A stretch of 64,000 bases of DNA, taken from a virus. The stretch lies in IMG/VR virus record IMGVR_UViG_3300017963_000261, positions 1-64,000 of that record, one strand, 5' to 3'. The translations under genes and the position numbers were made by a program. Under the pieces are notes generated by a model, which worked only from the letters and a program-made list of their open reading frames with translations, did no database searches and was not told the origin of the DNA. This document shows positions 773 through 24,173 of the stretch, one piece after another (positions within the stretch are counted from its first letter, which is position 1; the number at the start of each line of letters is the position of its first letter).

Positions 773-1189
773 ATGGTAAAGGGGTACAGTCGAGAGCGGT
801 TGTTAGAGGCAATCAAAGGCAGCGGGGGCATTACGCTCACGGTGGCTCAGCGTCTCGGCTGCGATTGGGTGACGGCCAAGCGGTACATAGAGAAATGGGA
901 ATCGACTAAAGAGGCGTTTCGGTCGGAGAACGAGCAGATTCTAGATGTGGCTGAGTCTGTGCTCAGTCGCAACATTCGCTTGGCATATCGGCAACAGGAG
1001 GACACCGGACTGCCGGTAGACTCTGGCGATGCCAAGTGGTTGCTTGCCCGCAAAGGCAAAAGACGTGGATATGCTGACAAGCAGGAGATAGAATACGGCG
1101 GCACAGGCGAGGGCGGGGCGATACCCATTCGCCTATACACGGACGATTCTATAGTGATTTTACACGACGATGACGACGACCGGGACTGA
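773..1189 (+). CDS. terS: Putative terminase small subunit
   Basis: A 138-residue protein starting with a helix-turn-helix-like segment (ERLLEAIKGSGG, then TVAQRLGCDWVTAKRYIEKW) typical of small terminase subunits that bind the packaging site. The middle is helical and charged, and the C-terminus ends in an acidic DDDDDRD tail. It overlaps the large terminase start by 20 bp and directly precedes it, the canonical terS-terL order. GGAAAG sits upstream of the ATG. Function rests on the fold-like N-terminus and position, since small terminases diverge strongly. Confidence 0.7.
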   Translation: MVKGYSRERLLEAIKGSGGITLTVAQRLGCDWVTAKRYIEKWESTKEAFRSENEQILDVAESVLSRNIRLAYRQQEDTGLPVDSGDAKWLLARKGKRRGYADKQEIEYGGTGEGGAIPIRLYTDDSIVILHDDDDDRD

Positions 1190-3440
1190 GTTCAGGATAC
1201 CGCTGACAACTGAGAATCAACTGCGTGCTTTCGTGCATTATGCCTTTGGTGTGAGCATCCCAGATGTGCAGGTCTGTCCACATCACACAACACCCTGGCG
1301 GGCCTTTGCTGATGCGTACTTTGCCAAAGCCAGCGTGAGTGTCTGGAAGGCATCAAGGGGTTTTGGGGGAAAGTCCTATTTGTTGGCCCTGTTGGGCTTG
1401 ACGGAAGCCATCACGCTCAAGGCAGATGTGAACATCTTAGGCGGCAGCGGGGAACAGTCTGAGAACGTCCACACCTACATGCGCGATGAGTTCTGGACAC
1501 ACCCACATGCCCCTCGCCACCTGTTAGCCAGCGACCCAGCCAAGCGCGCCACAAAGCTGGTGTGGGGCAATACCATCAAGGCGCTGATGGCGAGTCAAAA
1601 GAGCGTGCGCGGCCCACATCCGCAGCGGCTACGCCTGGATGAAATTGATGAAATGGACCTATCTATCTTTGATGCCGCAATGGGACAGACGATGGAAGGT
1701 GACACAGGCATCCCGGCCCAAACGGTTGCCAGTAGCACGCACCACTATGCTGATGGCACGATGACTGAGGTGCTGCGTCGGGCCAATGAGAAGGGCTGGC
1801 CCACGTATGAGTGGTGCATTTCTGGAAACTGTGGTATAATGGGTATAGACCGAATAATCCCAATGCGCGAAATACGAAAGGGAGATAGAGTTTATGCCTA
1901 CAAAGACGGAAAACTCATTAAAACTACAGTCACAGATGCGTGGTGTAGTGGGAAAAGACGAACAATCATTATTCACACAAGCCGAGGCTCAGTCCATTGT
2001 ACGCCGGAACACCGAATCCTCACGAAAGACGGATGGACACAGGCAGGGCATCTCACAACAGGGGATGTGGTGTGCTCAGTGTGGAACCCACAAGGCGACG
2101 CACGGCGCCTTGTGCAAGATGTGTCACTACAACAACAGGTGTGTAGATTGTGGCAAGCTGATTGTAAGACACGCGACTCGATGCCAGTCATGTGCTGCCA
2201 AATGCAACAGCAATCTGCCAGTACCCAAGCCAACCGAGAAAACCATCTGTCCGATATGTGGAGGCCGCAAGCAGTCACGATCCAAGACTTGCCTGACGTG
2301 TTACCGGAAAACAATGTCTCAAAGGAACGTGCGAAAAGCGGGCGTGATGGCGTTAGCGCGAGAGCGTATCGCACAATCAGGCAACAGTCGCAGGCGATCC
2401 AGCAAAGGCGAGCAAGCCGCCGAAGAACTATTAACACAGCTAGGCCTACGCTTTCGCTCACAGGAACGATACGGTCGATATGTAGTGGATTTCGTTCTGG
2501 ACGATTACGATATAGCAATCGAGGTGAATGGGCGCTATTGGCACAGCAAGCCTGCCCAGCGAGACCGAGATCAGCAAAAGAAGAAATTGGTGGAGCAGGC
2601 GGGGTTAACGTTACTGATATTATGGAACGACCAGCGCCATCTGTGGACTTTACAGCTGTGCAGAGCATTGAATGTGGAGCTTTCACTCTCGTCTATGATT
2701 TGAGTGTAGAACAAGGCAATTCATTTGTAGCTAACGGCATCGTGGTACACAATTGCTTCAAGGAAACGGCGACGGGATGGCTGACACAGACAGAGATACA
2801 GCGCAAGCGCGCTGAGGTGACGACGGTCATCTGGGATGTGGAGTATGACCTGCAAGAGCCGTCGCCAGAGAGCAGGGCTATACAGCCTGATAAGGTTACG
2901 GCTACATTTGACCGTAGCCTGGGCGAATATGAAGGCAGTGTCGGGGAACGCATCATCGTTGAGGAACCACAAGAGGGCGCAAAGTATAGTACGGGCGCGG
3001 ATTGGGCCAAGGAACAAGACTTTACGGTCATCATCACGTTCCGCACCGATGTGCGTCCTATTCGCCTTGTAGCCTTTGAGCGCACACAGCGACTCCCCTG
3101 GCCGGTAATGGTAGGCAAGTACGATGCCCGTCTGGAGCGGTACGGGGCCAAGGGGGCACATGATAACACGGGCCTGGGTGATGTGATAGCCGATTTTCTA
3201 CAGCACCAGGCCACGACGACGGACGTGAACATGGTCGGTAGGGCGCGACAAGACTTGCTTTCCAACTACATCGCAGCGATAGAGGCCGACGATGTGCGTG
3301 CGCCGTTCATTCGTTTTATGGAGGCAGAGCACCGCCTAGCCAGTGTGGACCACGTTTACGGCAGCAAGCACTTGCCGGACAGCATCGCGGCGGGTGCGCT
3401 GGCCTGGATGGGCACGCGGGGCGGTGTGTTCGTAGGATGA
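1170..3440 (+). CDS. terL: Terminase large subunit interrupted by an intein
   Basis: The 756-residue precursor is the packaging motor. The N-extein ATPase has a Walker A-like loop KASRGFGGKS (about residues 60-69) and Walker B LRLDEIDEMD (about 151-160). After the intein, the nuclease domain shows GADWAKEQDFTVI and HDNTGLGDVIADFL with the expected acidic residues. An intein of 313 residues (1815-2753) sits between YEW and CFKETATG; removing it leaves about 443 residues, normal for TerL, and recreates the WC motif seen at this point in related terminases. The first extein residue after the intein is Cys, as required for splicing. A second gene is encoded out of frame inside the intein. Confidence 0.93.
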   Translation: MTTTGTEFRIPLTTENQLRAFVHYAFGVSIPDVQVCPHHTTPWRAFADAYFAKASVSVWKASRGFGGKSYLLALLGLTEAITLKADVNILGGSGEQSENVHTYMRDEFWTHPHAPRHLLASDPAKRATKLVWGNTIKALMASQKSVRGPHPQRLRLDEIDEMDLSIFDAAMGQTMEGDTGIPAQTVASSTHHYADGTMTEVLRRANEKGWPTYEWCISGNCGIMGIDRIIPMREIRKGDRVYAYKDGKLIKTTVTDAWCSGKRRTIIIHTSRGSVHCTPEHRILTKDGWTQAGHLTTGDVVCSVWNPQGDARRLVQDVSLQQQVCRLWQADCKTRDSMPVMCCQMQQQSASTQANRENHLSDMWRPQAVTIQDLPDVLPENNVSKERAKSGRDGVSARAYRTIRQQSQAIQQRRASRRRTINTARPTLSLTGTIRSICSGFRSGRLRYSNRGEWALLAQQACPARPRSAKEEIGGAGGVNVTDIMERPAPSVDFTAVQSIECGAFTLVYDLSVEQGNSFVANGIVVHNCFKETATGWLTQTEIQRKRAEVTTVIWDVEYDLQEPSPESRAIQPDKVTATFDRSLGEYEGSVGERIIVEEPQEGAKYSTGADWAKEQDFTVIITFRTDVRPIRLVAFERTQRLPWPVMVGKYDARLERYGAKGAHDNTGLGDVIADFLQHQATTTDVNMVGRARQDLLSNYIAAIEADDVRAPFIRFMEAEHRLASVDHVYGSKHLPDSIAAGALAWMGTRGGVFVG
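1831..1840 (+). promoter_or_regulatory. Extended -10 promoter inside the intein, for the nested endonuclease gene
   Basis: GTGGTATAAT contains a perfect -10 (TATAAT at 1835-1840) and the TGn extension. The -35 at 17 bp (TGGTGC) is weak. The same string precedes the genes at 9754 and 55441 and the short transcript at 38245, so it matches this genome's rightward promoter type. Transcription would start near 1847, about 47 nt before the nested gene's ATG at 1894. Confidence 0.55.
1894..2703 (+). CDS. Nested zinc-finger VSR/DUF559-like endonuclease, encoded out of frame within the intein
   Basis: A 269-residue protein in the +1 frame relative to terL, lying wholly inside the intein. The first 57 residues shadow the intein N-domain. 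From residue 58 there are paired CxxC zinc-binding units (CAQC, CKMC, CVDC, CQSC, CPIC, CLTC). The C-terminal domain has the PD-(D/E)XK/VSR-type core: KGEQAAEELL, YVVDFVLDDYDIAIEVNGRYWH and a basic helix, then LTLLILWND. AAAGGGAGAT lies 8 nt before ATG 1894 and an extended -10 lies further upstream; a second ATG at 2065 would begin at the zinc region. It is homologous to the minus-strand gene at 10629-11741. Likely the homing nuclease that mobilises the intein; that role is inference. Confidence 0.8.
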   Translation: MPTKTENSLKLQSQMRGVVGKDEQSLFTQAEAQSIVRRNTESSRKTDGHRQGISQQGMWCAQCGTHKATHGALCKMCHYNNRCVDCGKLIVRHATRCQSCAAKCNSNLPVPKPTEKTICPICGGRKQSRSKTCLTCYRKTMSQRNVRKAGVMALARERIAQSGNSRRRSSKGEQAAEELLTQLGLRFRSQERYGRYVVDFVLDDYDIAIEVNGRYWHSKPAQRDRDQQKKKLVEQAGLTLLILWNDQRHLWTLQLCRALNVELSLSSMI

Positions 3441-6869: not shown

Positions 6870-7063
6870 CAACACCAATACTTAGTCGTCAGTGTGCAAA
6901 CTGTCGGCATCTTGATGGCGTCAATGATGACAATAGGTGGTACTGCAAGGCGTTTCCAGAAGGGATCCCCATAGCGATTGCCAAAGAACAGCATGACCAT
7001 CGACAACCGTATAGGGGCGATAATGGCATTAGATTTGAGGTGAGAGAGGACGAAGACGCATAG
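6866..7063 (+). CDS. Small cysteine-containing phage protein following the head protein
   Basis: A 65-residue protein whose TTG start overlaps the previous stop (TTGA). It has CANCRHLDG, then [11 protein letters not shown] and [13 protein letters not shown], three cysteines arranged like a small metal or redox site. Short proteins with this CxxC...CxAFPxGIP...H...GDxG pattern are often found just after minor head genes. Its function is not known to me. The minus-strand gene at 7029-7559 overlaps its last 35 bp in antisense. Confidence 0.65.
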
Positions 7064-7559
7064 TTCGCTGGCCATTCTTGCGTCGAACAAGTTCTCTATG
7101 CCATTCAAACCAGCCGCTATCCCGATAGACACGACGAAGAATTATAGTGGCGCATAGGTAAGCATCATCGGGCAGAGACAAGAGGTCAGTAATAGGGATG
7201 TTCCAGTAAGCATCGATGAGACGATGGCTCCAGCGATAGCAGGAAACTTTACCTATCTGCTTTCGCTCATATGGTAGCTCGACGTTGATGAGATGTTCAG
7301 TAATCAGCGTGCCCAAGCAGCGGGTGCGTAGGCCGTGTGAACAAGTAGTATTTTGCCGGTCTCCCGAGCTAGCGAATGGGCACAAAAGACCGTCGCGCCA
7401 AGAATAGTTGAACGGATAGTCCCATAGCCAATCATGGACTTGACTAAGAGTAGGGGCGATTAAGACTCGGTGTTCAGGGAAATGAGTAGTGTGGAATTTG
7501 CCAAATCTATCTTTGGTAATGATATCGTGCGCTGGTACGGATATGTAATGGTGTTCCAT
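7029..7559 (-). CDS. Minus-strand protein of unknown function in a homing-gene-like cassette
   Basis: A 176-residue protein that I do not recognise. It has several His and Cys residues ([24 protein letters not shown]) and a hydrophobic [21 protein letters not shown] stretch. ATG 7559 is preceded by AGGAGGA at 7 nt, part of a leader shared with the minus-strand nuclease gene at 10629-11741. It has its own consensus promoter, runs against all neighbours and fills an otherwise empty gap between head genes. Orientation, promoter and leader suggest a free-standing homing-type gene; the protein itself shows no clear nuclease motif. Confidence 0.6.
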
Positions 7560-7668
7560 CAGAAAATCCTCCTGGCTCAGGACATAACTGGCATATTCTC
7601 AAGTTGGGGCAGGCTCCTTGCCAGTAGAGAGCTTTTCAACACCGCTGATCAAGCCGCGTCTAGCCCTA
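7560..7668 (-). ncRNA. Structured 5' leader RNA, copy 1
   Basis: The untranslated leader runs from the predicted start near 7668 to the ATG at 7559. Pairing seen: GGGC near the 5' end (7663-7666) with GCCC (7606-7610 region); a hairpin with arms at 7626-7632 and 7613-7618 whose loop is ACTGGCA (7619-7625); that loop with TGCCAG (7588-7593), making a pseudoknot; and TCCT with AGGA across 7567-7582, which covers the Shine-Dalgarno. The leader at 11742-11838 keeps the same layout with different stem sequence, so pairing rather than sequence appears conserved. It looks like a translational control element; any ligand is unknown. Confidence 0.55.
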
Positions 7669-7674
7669 CAGAAC

Positions 7675-7703
7675 AGTATACAGCATTTGTGGGCGTTTGT
7701 CAA
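7675..7703 (-). promoter_or_regulatory. Sigma-70 promoter for the minus-strand gene at 7029-7559
   Basis: On the minus strand TTGACA (7703-7698), exactly 17 bp, then TATACT (7680-7675). Start expected near 7668. The -35 box lies just upstream of the rightward gene starting at 7715. Confidence 0.85.
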
Positions 7704-10456: not shown

Positions 10457-10651
10457 ATGGACAGGCAAACGAAACCGAACAACCTACAACTGGTCGAGGT
10501 GCGCTGCGCTCAGTGCCTACAGCCAACGGACACCATCTGTATGGTGCGCCGGGACGGCAAGCTGGTAGCGCTATGCCCCAAGTGCGCGGTACAAGGCGGG
10601 CGGCGCTCCACTGTGGGGCCGACAGAGTTTAAGGGCGCGGGCGTGGCGTGA
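10457..10651 (+). CDS. Small zinc-ribbon protein
   Basis: Sixty-four residues with CAQCLQPTDTICMVRRDGK followed by LCPKCAVQGG, a four-cysteine ribbon. GGGAT lies just upstream of the ATG, itself about 11 nt after a terminator T run, so expression may depend on read-through. Its 3' end overlaps in antisense the end of the minus-strand endonuclease gene. Specific function unknown. Confidence 0.5.
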   Translation: MDRQTKPNNLQLVEVRCAQCLQPTDTICMVRRDGKLVALCPKCAVQGGRRSTVGPTEFKGAGVA

Positions 10652-11741
10652 GATGTTCGACTATCGCATCCACGCAGACCACAGGAGAGGAGCGAATTTC
10701 GTCACCAGTGAATCGAAGGACTATCCAGCCCTTGCGCTCAAGGTCAGCGTTCTTGCGTTGGTCACGCTCTTGTACTTCTGGGCTACTGTGCCAATAGGCA
10801 CCATCGGCCTCGACGGCGAGCTTGTGGTCGGGAAAAGCGATGTCGATATGCCAGCGCTCAACTTTATATTCGGTTCTGAACAGGACGCCCCTGGCTTCAA
10901 GTTCTTGCTGGAGCAGTATTTCTATGGACGTTGGTCCATTGTACCGGGCGAAGCAGTTGCGAGAGCAGAATCGCGCAATCCCTTCTCTGCATGGATAGAT
11001 GGAAAAGACTTTACCGCATATCTCACAAGTGGCAGTAGCGCCACTAGTCTTGGCCTGCCAATGGCATTCTTGGGAACAGTATTTGGCATTTTGGGCGCGG
11101 AAGTGATGAACAACAAACGCATCGCCACAGTGTTCGCATATCTTGGTAACGCTGGCGCGCGCTTGGTCATGGCACTCGGTCGAACAATAGCGCCGGTTAC
11201 TACTGGGATGGACCTGAAAAGATTGGCCGCAATGTGGGCACGTTCTGGCTGTACGGTGGTAGTGGGGATGGCTCTCGCCCCTCATGCCTATATGTTGACA
11301 TTCTGCCGAGCAGTAAGTTTTATTGATTCGTGCGGCGCGGTCAGAAAATGTGTTTCCACACACAGGGCAGGTTTTAGAGATAAGCGGAATGTCATTCATA
11401 CAATCTTTCGAGCAATATATCCCACGCCCCTTGGTCACGCGATTTTGGTCGATGGTGAAAAGCTTGCCGCACCGCTGGCATTTACGGGTAACAGGGCCAC
11501 CAGTCCAATGCCCGGCATTTGGGCCTACGCGATATTCATGAGAGCATTTGCGCGAACAAAAGTCACCAGCGTTGTAAATCAGTTCACTTGGACGAACTTC
11601 GAAAGATTTGCCGCAATTCTTGCAGGTGCGCGGAATGCGTTTCTTGCGCGATTCGTAGTGGCAGGCGCGAGAACAGAACTTTTGGGCATTGCCCTTGGAG
11701 TAAAAAGACTTGCCGCAGTGTTGGCAGACTTTTTGAGGCAC
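10629..11741 (-). CDS. Free-standing seven-zinc-knuckle VSR/DUF559-like endonuclease
   Basis: A protein of about 370 residues from GTG 11741, preceded by GGGAGGA at 7 nt. It has seven tandem units of the form CxxCGxxF...(Y/F)CSxxC (starting CQHCGKSF, CKNCGKSF, CQRCGKLF, CPVCGNTF, CPHCGQSF, CEHCGDAF, CEICGKVF), each likely binding one zinc. The last 110 residues are the nuclease: TSIEILLQQELEARG, WHIDIAFPDHKLAVEADGAYWHSS (split over the core) and GWIVLRFTGDEI. The core matches the nested intein nuclease (EVNGRYWH versus EADGAYWH). Minus strand, own promoter and structured leader: a homing-type mobile gene. The zinc array probably reads DNA; that is inference. Confidence 0.88.
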   Translation of the reverse strand: MPQKVCQHCGKSFYSKGNAQKFCSRACHYESRKKRIPRTCKNCGKSFEVRPSELIYNAGDFCSRKCSHEYRVGPNAGHWTGGPVTRKCQRCGKLFTIDQNRVTKGRGIYCSKDCMNDIPLISKTCPVCGNTFSDRAARINKTYCSAECQHIGMRGESHPHYHRTARTCPHCGQSFQVHPSSNRRYCSTECHDQARASVTKICEHCGDAFVVHHFRAQNAKYCSQECHWQAKTSGATATCEICGKVFSIYPCREGIARFCSRNCFARYNGPTSIEILLQQELEARGVLFRTEYKVERWHIDIAFPDHKLAVEADGAYWHSSPEVQERDQRKNADLERKGWIVLRFTGDEIRSSPVVCVDAIVEHLTPRPRP

Positions 11742-11838
11742 AACAAAATCCTCCCGGCTCAGGATAGCTGGCAGATATTTGATGGTGGGGGCGGCTCGGT
11801 GCCAGTGACCGAGTGTTCGGGTCGCGTTCCCTAGCCCC
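11742..11838 (-). ncRNA. Structured 5' leader RNA, copy 2
   Basis: The leader begins near 11838, the predicted transcription start, with GGGGCTAG. Pairing seen: GGGGC (11834-11838) with GCCCC (11788-11792); hairpin CTCGGT/ACCGAG (11808-11813 and 11795-11800) with loop CACTGGC; that loop with TGCCAG (11768-11773), a pseudoknot; and ATCCT/AGGAT across 11748-11765, which covers the Shine-Dalgarno. The copy at 7560-7668 has the same order and the same loop and anti-loop, while the hairpin stem differs yet still pairs. That supports a conserved RNA fold controlling translation. Confidence 0.6.
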
Positions 11839-11844
11839 ACTAAT

Positions 11845-11873
11845 AGTATAACACAAAAGTCGGATTTTTGCAA
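11845..11873 (-). promoter_or_regulatory. Sigma-70 promoter for the seven-knuckle endonuclease gene
   Basis: On the minus strand TTGCAA (11873-11868), 17 bp, TATACT (11850-11845). The start is expected near 11838, exactly at the GGGGCTAG that opens the structured leader. Confidence 0.8.
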
Positions 11874-23720: not shown

Positions 23721-24173
23721 CTATTCTATAATGATGATGGTTCGGACGGTCTTTTCGCGTATTGGTAGCGTAACCTTGCCACTATCATATTCCTGTATGA
23801 AGAGATGTAGGGCATATCGGAGAACGCCGTTCAGGGTGACGCTGTGTTCAGCAGCAATGTCTTTGAGGCGCTTATGGGTATCATCGCTCACTCTGTAGGT
23901 ATGGCGTGGATAAGCCTTATCATATGGGGGGACATGGCGAGGGATACGCCTCTTGTGTAGTTTGATGTACTTGCGTTTCTCTGCTAAGGAAGAGAAGAGT
24001 TGCCCGCCAGCAACGGAGTTGCATATGCTACAGGCAGCAACCAAGTTGTTGTCCTCGTGTGTCCCTCCGTGGTTCTGGGGGACGATGTGGTCTATTTCTG
24101 TAGCTGGGCCGTCGCAATATGCACAGATATAGTTGTCTCGCTTAAGTATGCGCTTAACGGGGTATGAACTCAT
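23721..24173 (-). CDS. Minus-strand HNH endonuclease with C-terminal DNA-binding helices
   Basis: A 150-residue protein. The HNH nuclease comes first: LKRDNYICAYCDGPATEIDHIVPQ, then HGGTHEDNNLVAACSICN, with CxxC pairs binding the structural zinc and the DH of the active site. The second half (YRVSDDTHKRLKDIAAEHSVTLN...) looks like a ribbon-helix-helix domain. CAGGAGG lies before the ATG and a perfect promoter lies upstream. It runs against the glycan operon between a sulfotransferase and a propeller gene. Most likely a free-standing homing endonuclease. Confidence 0.88.
   Translation of the reverse strand: MSSYPVKRILKRDNYICAYCDGPATEIDHIVPQNHGGTHEDNNLVAACSICNSVAGGQLFSSLAEKRKYIKLHKRRIPRHVPPYDKAYPRHTYRVSDDTHKRLKDIAAEHSVTLNGVLRYALHLFIQEYDSGKVTLPIREKTVRTIIIIE

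Follow-up and report, generated by a model that had tools for sequence, protein, structure and literature searches.

Divergent int-alpA RNA leaders before two phage genes suggest a translational switch built on one loop with two complements

Introduction

In the phage homing endonuclease genes I-TevI and mobE the ribosome site is known to be sequestered by RNA structures, which are described as local, and a leader pseudoknot bound by the gene's own product controls translation of T4 gene 32 (PMC3014915). Hammerhead ribozymes, which are common near integrases in prophages (PMC3088659), have a three-way junction with a GAAA joining segment. A three-way junction also characterizes int-alpA (Rfam RF02996), an orphan RNA family with a location between int and alpA that Rfam types as 'Gene; sRNA' and that a full-text literature search found in a single paper, mentioned in passing.

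Here we analyse 64,000 nucleotides of a viral record (IMGVR_UViG_3300017963_000261, positions 1 to 64,000; henceforth the window), in which two minus-strand genes carry similar leaders. We report that these leaders are new, divergent members of int-alpA, and that comparison across the family suggests a translation switch before many phage genes, in which the L3 loop would choose between two complementary partners.

Results

Two leaders with a shared architecture

The elements of the two leaders and their genes are as follows.

Copy 1, minus strand
7675..7703, minus: sigma-70-type promoter, TTGACA-17-TATACT (from the sequence)
7607..7666, minus: three-way junction core (covariance models R1 and R2, see below; helices checked by pairing)
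7666-7663 with 7610-7607, minus: helix P1, GGGC/GCCC
between P1 and P3, minus: helix P2, GACGCGGCU/AGCGGUGUU
7632-7626 with 7618-7613, minus: hairpin P3, GCUCUCU/AGGAGC
joining segments: UA (P1-P2), GAAAA (P2-P3), CU (P3-P1)
7619..7625, minus: loop L3, ACUGGCA, with pairing part CUGGCA at 7624-7619
7588..7593, minus: proximal (pseudoknot) strand UGCCAG, partner of L3 and the same element in the family
7566..7583, minus: hairpin P4, GUCCU-GAGCCAGG-AGGAU, arms 7583-7579 with 7570-7566, over the Shine-Dalgarno sequence
7029..7559, minus: gene of 176 aa, function not assigned

Copy 2, minus strand
11845..11873, minus: promoter, TTGCAA-17-TATACT
11785..11840, minus: three-way junction core (rank 2 with R2; weak RF02996 match)
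helices: P1 GUGGGGC/GCCCC(C)AC, P2 GGG/CCC, P3 CUCGGU/ACCGAG
joining segments: UA (P1-P2), GAACA (P2-P3), CC (P3-P1)
11800..11807, minus: loop L3, CACUGGC(A)
11768..11773, minus: proximal strand UGCCAG
11748..11765, minus: hairpin P4, AUCCU-GAGCCGGG-AGGAU
10629..11741, minus: gene of 370 aa, zinc-finger repeats and a Vsr/DUF559/MTES_1575-type nuclease domain (Pfam)

A first-pass annotation had proposed a common fold for the two leaders, and P1, P3, the L3 pseudoknot and the ribosome-site hairpin are all found where it placed them; it had overlooked P2 and a second L3 complement in the P4 loop. P2 sits between P1 and P3, and the core is therefore a three-way junction. The hammerhead reading of this junction was rejected: the aligned members have UA as joining segment 1/2 where a hammerhead has CUGANGA, and they therefore lack the catalytic core. 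In copy 1 the second L3 complement, GCCAG (7576-7572), overlaps the Shine-Dalgarno sequence AGGAGG (7573-7568), and in copy 2 GCCGG (11758-11754), in the P4 loop at the Shine-Dalgarno sequence, is complementary to L3 with one G-U pair, without which three consecutive Watson-Crick pairs are left. Both copies keep the design of an L3 with a proximal strand and a ribosome-site partner.

Over aligned columns the identity of the two leaders is about 79%, and five of the six P3 pairs differ in both arms with pairing kept, which bears out the earlier claim that stem bases change together. L3 can form seven (copy 1) and six (copy 2) Watson-Crick pairs with the proximal strand, the loop/downstream 6-mer pair occurs in the window at these two leaders only (0.36 expected), and each leader has its own promoter with the -10 element adjoining the RNA. 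The calculated L3 duplex energies of the two pairings lie near each other in each copy (-11.4/-9.9 and -10.2/-9.2 kcal/mol). Simple folding energy is unremarkable against shuffled sequences (z 0.86 and -0.24 for copies 1 and 2), so support for the leaders is comparative, not thermodynamic. The single-strand minimum free energy fold of copy 2 recovers the junction; for copy 1 the junction has -24.3 kcal/mol and the minimum -28.5 kcal/mol, the pseudoknot being left out of the energy.

The genes behind the leaders look unrelated, and the first-pass annotation had rightly seen that they share a conserved, covarying leader in which a loop takes part in a pseudoknot and the ribosome site is structured. 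The copy 1 protein has no match in Pfam, NCBIfam or PADLOC and no significant match in PHROGs, and its AlphaFold model is of low confidence (pLDDT 43). The copy 2 protein also matches the PADLOC homing endonuclease and PHROGs HNH endonuclease profiles and is probably a free-standing homing endonuclease. The leader was not found at relatives of this endonuclease.

Other endonuclease-like frames were seen alongside. At 1170-3440 (plus strand) of the window the terminase reading frame appears to hold an intein-like insert. An open frame of 269 aa at 1894-2703 (plus strand), in another frame of the terminase stretch, matches Vsr/DUF559 nucleases and may be an endonuclease gene nested out of frame in the intein region. 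A short minus-strand open frame at 23721-24173, among plus-strand genes, has an HNH-like motif, CAYCDGPATEIDHIVPQNHGG, and is possibly a third mobile endonuclease. In another sequence (L135, about 1870-1950) the gene for a distant relative of the copy 2 endonuclease is preceded by a promoter, directly after it a perfect GGGGCCCG/CGGGCCCC hairpin, and then AGGAGG; this plain GC hairpin is not int-alpA but a structured leader of a different kind.

The leaders are divergent members of int-alpA

The first-pass annotation had matched the fold to no known class, a claim that does not stand. In a permissive Rfam scan copy 2 matched RF02996 with 23.0 bits (E 0.004-0.006; gathering cut-off 35.8 bits) and copy 1 had no RF02996 match, so that neither copy reaches the gathering score; no other Rfam family had a match above threshold in the leaders, the remaining ones being reported at E of about 0.9 or more. 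We take both leaders to be int-alpA members by their structure, although neither reaches the Rfam cut-off. P1, P2 and P3 follow in the correct order, L3 is complementary to a strand 3' of P1 in both copies, and the family joining nucleotides CUAG, CGAAAAGC and GCCUG are found again as CUAG, UGAAAAGC and GCCUG in copy 1 and as CUAG, CGAACAC and GCCG in copy 2. What sets the window leaders apart is the long P2 of copy 1 and, in copy 2, the replacement of GAAAAGC by GAACAC, a junction that recurs in three family loci (L388, L389 and L390). The integrase-alpA location is not shared: the window copies are found among structural genes, before a Vsr-type endonuclease gene and a gene of unassigned function and not a gene between int and alpA, and many other members lie elsewhere too.

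Pattern scans found family members in 62 genome and 18 viral stretches, and with a second P1 variant one strict pattern found at least 120 viral stretches; when such pattern loci were submitted to Rfam, 14 of 18 scored above the cut-off as int-alpA. We built a covariance model (R1) from 75 pattern-found members, with the window left out, and a second (R2) from 61 sequences that included divergent members and again excluded the window. Their E-values are, by the tool's own statement, rough. R1 placed copy 1 at rank 1 (E 0.0026) and copy 2 at rank 3 (E 1.8) in the window, and R2 placed copy 1 at rank 1 (24.6 bits, E 0.0006, 0.00059 before rounding) and copy 2 at rank 2 (19.6 bits, E 0.011) in the 64 kb, with alignments that span the whole model for both. 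The next window match scored 13.6 bits, and control DNA gave at most 13.0 bits (88 kb from other phages) and 11.5 bits (73 kb around endonuclease genes); an R1 search of 731 kb gave no matches. The leaders are more than chance, since a covariance model trained without the window ranks the two copies first and second.

R1 members were found in 34 of 274 genomes from the class of a Zoogloea genome and in 13 of 148 genomes from the phylum to which a Desulfuromonadales genome belongs, some of these members being divergent and having the GAACAC junction of copy 2. One contig of genome G362, like the window, has two int-alpA-like copies (L408 and L412), which lie about 1.5 kb from each other. The exact ribosome-site string of the window, TCCTGAGCCNGGAGGATT, was found elsewhere only in two contigs of one sample with the same loci and in two chance-like matches, and a longer version of it is absent from the genome contigs. 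Two candidates were set aside: a weak model match (14.8 bits) at position 68884 of the parent record, which has no promoter-leader-gene arrangement and was taken as chance, and a pattern fixing the loop 6-mer of the window, whose matches in viral contigs were mostly chance.

Family helices covary, and start codons follow at a fixed spacing

The first-pass annotation had staked its reading on further copies with compensatory changes. These are plentiful: 75 aligned members have the same helices with many compensatory changes, the covariation score is 0.571 (0.138 for shuffled alignments, at most 0.143 for slid controls), and two-sided changes fill 294 cells, compared with 106 after shuffling. 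Because the first patterns fixed the junction letters, selection accounts for the invariance of these letters in A3; model-found members went into A4 and the hold-out.

A plausible open reading frame start is found 24-95 nt downstream of the core in 151 of 162 unique members, mostly at 35-44 nt, and the position is the same in members found by the model and not by pattern. The start codon thus follows an int-alpA RNA after about 40 nt, and the genes concerned are unrelated; among them are genes for HNH endonucleases, Rha-type regulators, replication/primosomal proteins and methyltransferases, and a tail gene. Promoter -10 elements adjoin P1 in some members (16, with 4.2 expected, within 8-19 nt). 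The int-alpA RNAs of E. coli, Klebsiella plasmids and a Klebsiella phage have the same junction and an L3 complement 3' of P1, and stand directly before a gene. Near-identical leaders in several viral contigs (L243, L254, L267, L268 and others) form a recurrent int-alpA group with L3 CAUGUUCA complementary to an upstream UGAACAUG and to a start region AUGAACAUG; the gene tested, that of L254, encodes a Rha-type regulator.

The L3 loop is complementary to two strands

Among 92 dereplicated members, L3 has a mean complementary run of 5.5 with its own proximal strand, compared with 3.6 for the strands of other members (z about 20), and of 5.1 with its own Shine-Dalgarno region, compared with 3.8 (z 13.5), the two sites being non-overlapping. 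None of 2000 and none of 5000 permutations reached the observed double complementarity. Both complementarities hold for 31 loops unlike an anti-Shine-Dalgarno sequence (z 8.6 and 7.0) and are seen again in a hold-out of 29 members (z 7.7 and 5.2). Where both partners exist, the L3 bases that they use overlap in 72 of 72 cases, and the two pairings are mutually exclusive because they draw on the same loop bases.

The second L3 site usually lies inside the loop of the short hairpin P4, whose stem has at least four pairs in 79% of members, compared with 47% when single bases are shuffled. The RF02996 model stops at the proximal strand, and P4 and the second complement lie beyond its end. Neither was found described in the literature searched, which did not include the family's original description. 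Comparison across the family shows a three-way junction with conserved joining nucleotides and a twofold L3 complement, and a start codon that follows P1 after about 40 nt.

Discussion

We think it probable, from comparative sequence evidence, that int-alpA leaders act in cis to control translation of these two independently promoted phage genes, with L3 toggling between two partners. Both pairings would compete for the same L3 bases. Pairing of L3 with the upstream strand would form first during transcription and leave the ribosome site free (on), and pairing of L3 with the ribosome site would block initiation (off). The junction would be the likely place where a ligand, a protein or a folding condition shifts the balance. 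We infer the toggling, the on state of the upstream pairing and the reception of a signal by the junction from the pattern of complementarity. One leader cassette in this phage would then serve both the Vsr-type endonuclease gene and the gene of unassigned function. Control of the former would be in keeping with the ribosome-site RNA structures established for I-TevI and mobE (PMC3014915); unlike those local sequestering structures, the window leaders combine a predicted three-way junction with a pseudoknot and with a second partner that would compete for L3. Several points weigh against this reading: neither copy attains the RF02996 gathering score, and for copy 1 there is no RF02996 match at all; the second L3 complement of copy 2 needs its G-U pair; the copy 1 junction is not the single-strand minimum; and L3, complementary as it is to the ribosome site, could repress constantly without switching.

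This last point is the core of a reading, somewhat unlikely in our judgement, in which the leader is passive and tunes or insulates translation, pairing of L3 with the ribosome site being a constant weak repression with no trigger. It explains the diversity of genes, and structures of a sequestering kind are known for homing endonuclease genes (I-TevI and mobE; PMC3014915), but conserved junction nucleotides or a proximal decoy strand are unnecessary for simple insulation. A tentative possibility is a host or phage protein that acts on translation, as a repressor or an activator, by binding to the junction or to P4. A general host factor would fit a leader common to unrelated genes of phages and integrative elements, and autogenous operators with hairpins and pseudoknots are known for T4 genes 32 and 43 (PMC3014915); however, no constant associated protein gene accompanies the loci sampled. 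The gene 32 operator serves one gene and is bound by its own product, whereas int-alpA stands before many unrelated genes and has no known binder. That int-alpA leaders are riboswitches, in which a small molecule at the junction sets the L3 partner, seems rather unlikely to us. The junction nucleotides (UA, GAAAA and CU) are conserved while the helices vary and the alternative pairings are located at the ribosome site, but the downstream genes (endonucleases, Rha, primosomal proteins, methyltransferases and tail genes) share no common pathway. Metabolite riboswitches usually control one pathway.

Two further readings are very improbable. A trans-acting sRNA would agree with the Rfam typing alone, and the fixed start-codon distance, the Shine-Dalgarno sequence within the structure and the complementarity of the RNA to its own ribosome site speak against it; a cis leader is favoured because start codons follow at fixed spacing before unrelated genes. 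Control by transcription attenuation, with P4 and a U run as an intrinsic terminator, draws on the string UCCUG-AGC-CRGGA-GGAUUUU, which scored terminator-like in both copies. We rejected it, as just four U follow GGA and elsewhere in the family P4 leads into the start codon, not into U.

To return to toggling leaders, a wider view, on which we are evenly divided, is that int-alpA comprises widespread toggling translational leaders whose loops evolve while staying complementary to both the decoy strand and the ribosome site, that they are a portable phage cassette before accessory genes including homing endonucleases, and that the family exceeds the Rfam model. Seen as a cis leader whose one loop has two rival partners, the orphan int-alpA becomes a testable regulator of many phage genes, and break-and-restore tests can draw precise predictions from the repeated L3 complement. 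Should the junction sense a signal, many unrelated phages would be reading it.
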